Source: Apostichopus japonicus (Eukaryota; Echinodermata; Holothuroidea; Aspidochirotida; Stichopodidae). From it: DNA of 64,000 bases. The notes below the pieces were generated by a model. That model had not been told where the DNA came from, did no database searches, and saw nothing but the letters and a program-made list of their open reading frames with translations. The stretch is from contig NC_092579.1 of NCBI RefSeq assembly GCF_037975245.1, positions 23,667,166 to 23,731,165 of the forward strand. The letters are read 5' to 3'. Below, piece by piece: positions 37,671 through 62,132 of this stretch; positions within the stretch are counted from its first letter, which is position 1, and every line of letters begins with the position of its first letter. The position numbers were made by a program, and so were the translations under genes.

Positions 37671-62132
<24,462 letters not shown>

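Follow-up and report, generated by a model that had tools for sequence, protein, structure and literature searches.

Short palindromes with 7-bp target duplications in Apostichopus japonicus are likely excision scars of a P-type transposon

Results

Three palindromes at the locus

The window, by which we mean the whole 64,000-nucleotide stretch analysed, corresponds to C19:23667166-23731165 of the 671.6-Mb Apostichopus japonicus genome (35 contigs). Three 25-bp palindromes with 7-bp flanking repeats had been predicted here, and all were found in place. They are called scars in the list below, in keeping with the reading we favour; copies of the repeat in which one of them lies (element D) are included.

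55098..55122, unstranded: 25-bp scar CAGGGAGTTGTTATG|CAACTCCCTG (join marked by the bar), 15 nt of one terminus plus 10 nt of the other, in repeat family U
55091..55097, unstranded: GTACAAC, left 7-bp target duplication of the 55098 scar
55123..55129, unstranded: GTACAAC, right 7-bp target duplication of the 55098 scar
23102..23126, unstranded: 25-bp scar inside element D; the family form joins 18 nt and 9 nt that share AA, and this copy has a single A-to-T change
23095..23101, unstranded: ATCTCAG, left target duplication of the 23102 scar
23127..23133, unstranded: ATCTCAA, right target duplication of the 23102 scar
27729..27753, unstranded: 25-bp scar, junction 18 + 9 sharing AA, two point changes in the arms
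27722..27728, unstranded: ACTAGGC, left target duplication of the 27729 scar
27754..27760, unstranded: ACTAGAC, right target duplication of the 27729 scar
22881..23281, plus strand: element D copy carrying the scar (BLAST within the window)
62207..62565, minus strand: element D copy with an empty target site, without exactly 32 bp (25 + 7) (BLAST)
11812..12177, minus strand: element D copy with an empty target site, without exactly 32 bp (BLAST)
5227..5544, plus strand: element D copy with an empty target site and one more base absent immediately downstream (BLAST)

The two flanks are identical at 7/7 positions for the 55098 copy and at 6/7 for both the 23102 and the 27729 copies; the right duplication of the 23102 scar reads ATCTCAG in all 7 other D-family scar copies examined. 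The 27729 copy had been assigned to a repeat termed MITE A, which could not be confirmed, as BLAST of 27400-28100 gave no second copy in the window at E 1e-3.

The window has several other features. Adjoining element D is a 492-aa open frame (23288-24766, minus strand) with a glutamine synthetase catalytic domain (PF00120, E 3.2e-71). A 123-bp fold-back at 18429-18551, with 56-bp arms and an 11-bp loop, has ACTAGT on both sides, and a long array of 21-bp tandem repeats at approximately 46040-48660 (117-118 overlapping 300-nt windows in register) is open in several frames. The inverted repeat at 50576-50775 has arms of approximately 95 nt and no spacer; its reading frame, IYIYIY, suggests a run of TA dinucleotides.

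Target duplications

Element D provides occupied and empty versions of the same site. At the point where 32 additional bases stand in the 23102 copy, the copies at 62207-62565 and 11812-12177 read TGGACATCTCAG|GTCTAGATAAAAG, and the empty site ATCTCAG|GT is present in four D copies (at 62.3k, 12.0k and approximately 5.3k in the window, and at locus L013). Since these copies lack the 25 + 7 bp, it was the insertion that made the 7-bp duplication, and the comparison with paralogous empty sites thus bears out what had been proposed for the 23102 copy.

Flanking 7-mers compared with controls gave the same answer. At 60 other sites, mean flank identity was 0.88 at 7 bp and 0.23-0.29 at 5, 6, 8 and 9 bp; the 8-bp register has an identity of 0.23 and 1/60 perfect repeats, and flanks re-paired as a control attain 6/7 in 2.8% of cases. 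Perfect 7-bp repeats are present at 36/60 sites and matches of at least 6/7 at 49/60, the remaining 11 having 5/7 (four), 4/7 (two), 3/7 (four) and 1/7 (one). The sample consists of 44 of the 49 listed sites of 26-50 bp (the other 5 were already in hand) and 16 of 56 truncated sites of 20-24 bp, picked for variety. In the truncated group the duplication is perfect in 13/16, 6/7 in 2 and 5/7 in 1, and several of these sites have one arm reduced to CAGGG or CCCTG; at L087, L095 and L098-L100, one arm is cut to 5 nt and the 7-bp repeats are still perfect. A general scan for palindromes with equal flanks had returned a 5-bp duplication for the 25-mer family, which was rejected because it reflects these 7-bp repeats counted with a shift of one base outwards.

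Copy number and junctions

As the original prediction had held, the palindromes form a family. A genome-wide search with CAGGGAGNNNTTATGNNNCTCYCTG, allowing ≤2 mismatches, found 658 + 652 = 1,310 places, compared to 1 + 2 for the reversed control. Among the first 28 25-mers listed, 14 have family U flanks, 7 have element D flanks and 7 are separate insertions. With 21/28 riding in two repeat families, the copy number is inflated by hitch-hiking; sites within one repeat family are not independent events, and the sampled sites are mostly on contigs C1-C2. Because its flanks are those that recur in family U, the 55098 copy, contrary to what had been thought, does not lie in unique DNA. In the DNA examined, 18/18 matches spanning the U site carry an insertion there, and no empty family U copy was found among these 18. 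Six of the 14 family U copies (L002, L012, L015, L017, L022 and L026) have an inverted left duplication, GTTGTAC for GTACAAC, which makes the scar and its flanks a palindrome with 17-bp arms and looks like palindrome correction by template switching. Bacterial sequences gave two matches (L009 and L010), about what a rough estimate predicts by chance. The viral contigs gave none for the 25-mer pattern or the 18-mer, and one 17-mer match for the second terminus described below.

The TTATG centre, which is the same in all three window copies and had been described as invariant, varies across the genome, and lengths run from 20 to 36 bp. The same arms with other centres (CAGGGAGTTGN{6,36}CAACTCCCTG) are present at 928 places (control 0), of which 49 listed sites are 26 to 34 bp long, except for one 50-bp composite (one nested place is uncounted). 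Truncated versions (CAGGGAGTTGTTATGN{0,4}CCCTG) account for the 56 sites of 20-24 bp (control 0). Widening the spacing (CAGGGAGTTGN{15,45}CAACTCCCTG) yielded 33 places of 35-65 bp (control 0), comprising four exact 35-mers, another 35-mer in which one base is changed, a single exact 36-mer and, judged by eye, tandem scars, filler or other sequence. The 35-mers at L113, L114 and L116 have perfect duplications and that at L115 matches at 6/7; the flanks of the sole exact 36-mer match at 2/7.

Most scars can be written as Li+Rj joins, where L is an 18-bp terminus, CAGGGAGTTGTTATGGAA, and R its reverse complement. Across 79 distinct sites examined, 54 are exact joins of this type and 25 need filler or point changes. 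The two pieces overlap by 0, 1 and 2 nt in 23, 8 and 23 of the 54 exact joins, so that 2-nt overlaps are in excess. For the 44 fetched sites with other centres, 31 are exact joins of the one 18-mer; 37 of the 44 are distinct and 26 of these clean. One tail of exactly 18 nt is retained in 19/26, and 15/26 share 2 nt, versus 15% expected for uniform joins, with the caveat that junction frequencies depend on the search pattern. The 25-mer of the GGAACT form is an 18 + 9 join sharing AA, the common 28-mer an 18 + 12 join sharing AA, the 55098 form a 15 + 10 join, and the exact 35-mers and 36-mer are 18 + 17 or 18 + 18 joins; one 28-mer alone is present at 16/44 fetched sites. In L111 and L117, judged by eye, parts of the adjacent terminus are repeated in short stretches, like templated insertions, between perfect duplications; L035 and L110 have similar filler but imperfect flanks.

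Some sites are compound. L056, L116 and L001 have two scars in tandem at one target 7-mer, as if insertion had been repeated at an existing duplication: GTTTGAC is present three times in L056 and GTCTAAC twice in L001, and in L116, read by eye, GTCAGAG occurs three times, with a 35-bp first-type scar in one gap and a 14-nt second-type remnant in the other. A cluster of several damaged scars and half-scars within approximately 200 bp (L104/L105) is found twice on contig C7.

The first terminus has relatives. A second type of palindrome, CATGGAGGTCTGTTTTACCTCCATG, is present in L029 with the perfect 7-bp duplication GTCAGAC, and a third, CATGGAGCTTTCGTTCATAGCTCCGTG, in L035 with ATTATAC, likewise perfect; for these two termini the flank repeat was seen at one complete scar each. 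The second terminus, CATGGAGGT, searched as CATGGAGGTN{0,25}ACCTCCATG, is found at 627 places, and the third, CATGGAGCT, searched as CATGGAGCTN{0,25}AGCTCCATG, at 797 (control 0 for both). Among the matches listed, 49/49 for CATGGAGGT (one nested of 50 was dropped) and 48/50 for CATGGAGCT are ≤36 bp although the patterns allow 43, the exceptions being 37 and 38 bp. Two further short palindromes, CACTGATCTG... and CAGAGCCTTTATA... (L032:1412-1433 and L032:2960-2984), have perfect 8-bp flank repeats and are possibly scars of families with 8-bp duplications.

Taken over the three termini, 54 independent perfect targets (52 for the first and one for each of the others) have the consensus GTYWRAC, with G1 at 55%, T2 at 90%, A6 and C7 symmetric to these, and T at 52% at the third base outside the duplication. 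The target preference is therefore a palindromic GT...AC motif that reaches beyond the duplication, as in the P superfamily, and the duplication of 7 bp falls in the 7-8 bp range of that superfamily.

Possible parent elements

The original prediction envisaged a longer element with the same ends, and several searches were made for it. Matches to CAGGGAGTTGTTATG without the 25-mer tail number 123, with no abundant long element among the 100 listed (tails whose third place is A fell outside the pattern); CAGGGAGTTGTTATGGAA followed by tails other than scars gave 167 matches, again with no abundant long element among 100 listed, and a stricter CAGGGAGTTGTTATGGAA pattern gave 18 matches and no abundant long element with these ends. 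Apart from scar or repeat sequence, no tail is frequent among the matches listed. The RNaseH domain of P/THAP9-type transposases (PF21787) has 45 matches in the genome, of which eight fall within open frames 628-789 aa long. Stretches were read at three loci resembling P transposase: 4.9 kb at C3:19.63M (L103), and approximately 1.1-1.2 kb to the left and right of the transposase frames located at C17:17.64M and C21:1.21M. These stretches contain no scar-type ends beyond a single ordinary 28-bp scar, in L103.

The only long element with these ends among the matches listed is L034, which is 757 bp long and has a perfect TTCACAC duplication. Its inner part (query 17-742) has approximately 40 copies elsewhere without these ends, and its right-hand form is found once in the genome. 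Since 757 = 25 + 726 + 6 and the inner copies lack the ends, L034 is a 726-bp MITE nested in a 25-mer, and we rejected it as the parent. The MITE (L034:779-1535; C1:14962893-14963649) has the ends TATGGAACGCG and a 6-bp GTTATG duplication inside the 25-mer; GTTATG had been considered as a built-in repair microhomology, an idea dropped because it is the duplication of the nested MITE. The same left join of the MITE recurs in two family U copies (L041 and L042), hinting that it prefers the scar centre. Other candidates fared no better: the same-ended stretches in L041 and L042 share the family U flank, with no long open frame or second end seen, and the one-sided end pairs of L104-L109 turned out to be repeats in which the scars are one-sided or clustered. 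Possibly the parent is rare, degraded or missing from the assembly.

Discussion

The 25-mers are very probably repaired excision scars of a larger cut-and-paste transposon and not mobile elements, since most copies examined are joins of two pieces of one 18-bp terminus. The idea of a self-standing 25-bp mobile element is hard to maintain given this decomposition and the one-arm truncations that keep their duplications; the accompanying proposal, that the 25-mers consist of ends only and depend on a protein coded elsewhere, is supported. Insertion occurred with a 7-bp duplication, the remnants in regular joins are at most 18 nt each, and the junctions are diverse. From this we infer that the remnants once enclosed a long element, which was excised with a stagger of 18 nt, after which the donor was sealed by end joining. 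We assign a probability of roughly 0.8 to a scar mechanism with a P-type stagger; against it stand the 11/60 flanks below 6/7 and the 25/79 sites that need filler or mutation. If the palindromes are scars, the long stagger together with the 7-bp GT...AC duplications makes the P superfamily (P element, Galileo, 1360, THAP9) their likely source. As no parent transposon was found, the P label is deduced from these features and the terminus itself is reconstructed from the scars, which indicate 18 nt of terminus, versus 17 for P, the stagger being read from the scars.

The rival that keeps closest to the original prediction takes the palindrome (25 bp, or 20-36 bp overall) as a mobile micro-MITE moved in trans, its various centres being loop mutations. 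It accommodates the insertion with 7-bp duplication, which is real, the recurrence of several centres at many sites, the 28-mer among them, and the lack of a parent among the matches listed. Like MITEs, the scars have terminal inverted repeats, target duplications and no coding capacity. However, a MITE is a constant mobile unit with both inverted repeats intact, whereas the scar body is not constant and its arms are freely truncated, down to 5 nt, beside intact duplications. For most centres, joining two pieces of one 18-mer would give the junction seen, with an excess of microhomology and some templated filler, and regular lengths stop at 36 bp, as they nearly do in the two sister families among the matches listed. 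P-type transposases require binding sites further inside the ends, for which the scars, unlike MITEs, are presumably too small, and we consider a micro-MITE quite improbable. An ordinary hairpin motif with no mobile history, such as a regulatory palindrome, or mere chance would account for 21/28 sampled 25-mers riding in two repeat families, and is otherwise scarcely credible: the controls gave 0-3 places versus 1,310, 928 and 56, the 7-bp flank repeats at independent sites already refute it, and empty paralogous sites exist.

A somewhat stronger contender, which we still regard as unlikely, is that the palindromes are excision scars of a non-P transposase, e.g., a hAT-like enzyme that makes 7-bp duplications or one from an undescribed superfamily whose cuts are widely staggered. 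The CAGGG ends and the T and A at the second and penultimate target bases (nTnnnAn) recall hAT elements and count against the P label; so do the tail of 18 rather than 17 nt and the finding of no P transposase between such ends in the stretches read at three loci. Yet hAT elements make 8-bp duplications (nTnnnnAn), and here the repeats are confined to the 7-bp register. Excision of hAT elements also forms hairpins on the flanks and leaves no terminus behind. Dada elements, to which the original prediction had pointed, make duplications of 6-7 bp in small-RNA genes. A review names the long stagger, 17 nt in P, as peculiar to P, among the features that set it apart from other characterised cut-and-paste transposons (PMC7776569).

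Under the P-type scar reading, a transposon with termini CAGGGAGTTGTTATGGAA...TTCCATAACAACTCCCTG would insert at nTnnnAn/GT...AC targets and duplicate 7 bp. Its transposase would cut one strand at the border between element and flank and the other approximately 18 nt inside the element, so that each donor end would keep an 18-nt single-stranded 3' tail of terminus sequence; that regular joins stop at 18 + 17 and 18 + 18 points to this tail length. End joining of the tails, with one of them trimmed, would often pair the terminal AA with an AA of the other tail, or, judging from the junction types, templated filler may be added at the join. An 18 + 9 join sharing AA would give the common 25-mer and a 15 + 10 join the 55098 form, and two scars, in families U and D, would then have been copied along with those families.

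When the Drosophila P element excises, 17-nt 3' tails remain, and its junctions in flies, as given in a 2010 study, have an 8-bp duplication, at most 17 nt of each terminus, overlaps of 1-3 nt, blunt joins and templated insertions (PMC2895639). The scars resemble these footprints in having a duplication on both sides, terminus remnants between, and blunt, microhomology and templated-insertion junctions. They differ in that the duplications are 7 bp long, as many as 18 nt remain on each side, the terminus has another sequence and no parent was seen, and in being natural scars at hundreds of places in one genome. Galileo, of the P superfamily, makes 7-bp duplications (GTAGTAC/GTATTAC) within a longer palindromic target motif (PMC2775673, PMC4168063). 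The 7-bp GT...AC duplications are shared with Galileo, whereas Galileo's inverted repeats are long and internally repetitive (PMC3573991) and its outer target motif differs. Zebrafish Pdre2/THAP9 is, like the inferred source of the scars, a P-type system outside insects with a short terminal inverted repeat; it differs in its 8-bp duplication and 13-bp repeat, and when its transposase carried out excision in Drosophila S2 cells, the flanking deletions were larger (PMC10983969). Among the titles listed in our literature search, which left subscription journals mostly outside and is no proof of unpublished status, none describes scar families of this kind.

Short palindromes flanked by duplications are easily mistaken for the smallest transposons known; here they are read as excision scars. 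Each scar records the former site of the element, its ends, the distance between the transposase cuts and the repair of the break, and the exact ends allow a search for the missing parent. The genome may thus preserve a natural record of the repair of such breaks: since duplications and junctions can be read at many sites, end-joining preferences such as microhomology and templated filler could be measured in a non-model organism without experiment. Tentatively, and at somewhat less than even odds, at least three related families (CAGGGAGTT, CATGGAGGT and CATGGAGCT) may make up a P-like branch whose duplications are 7 bp and whose stagger is 18 nt, and which moved frequently with little templated gap repair, leaving hundreds to thousands of scars and few or no visible parents. 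If true, this would be a near-vanished transposon lineage readable only via its scars, and, across the genome, a natural record of end joining in the germline.
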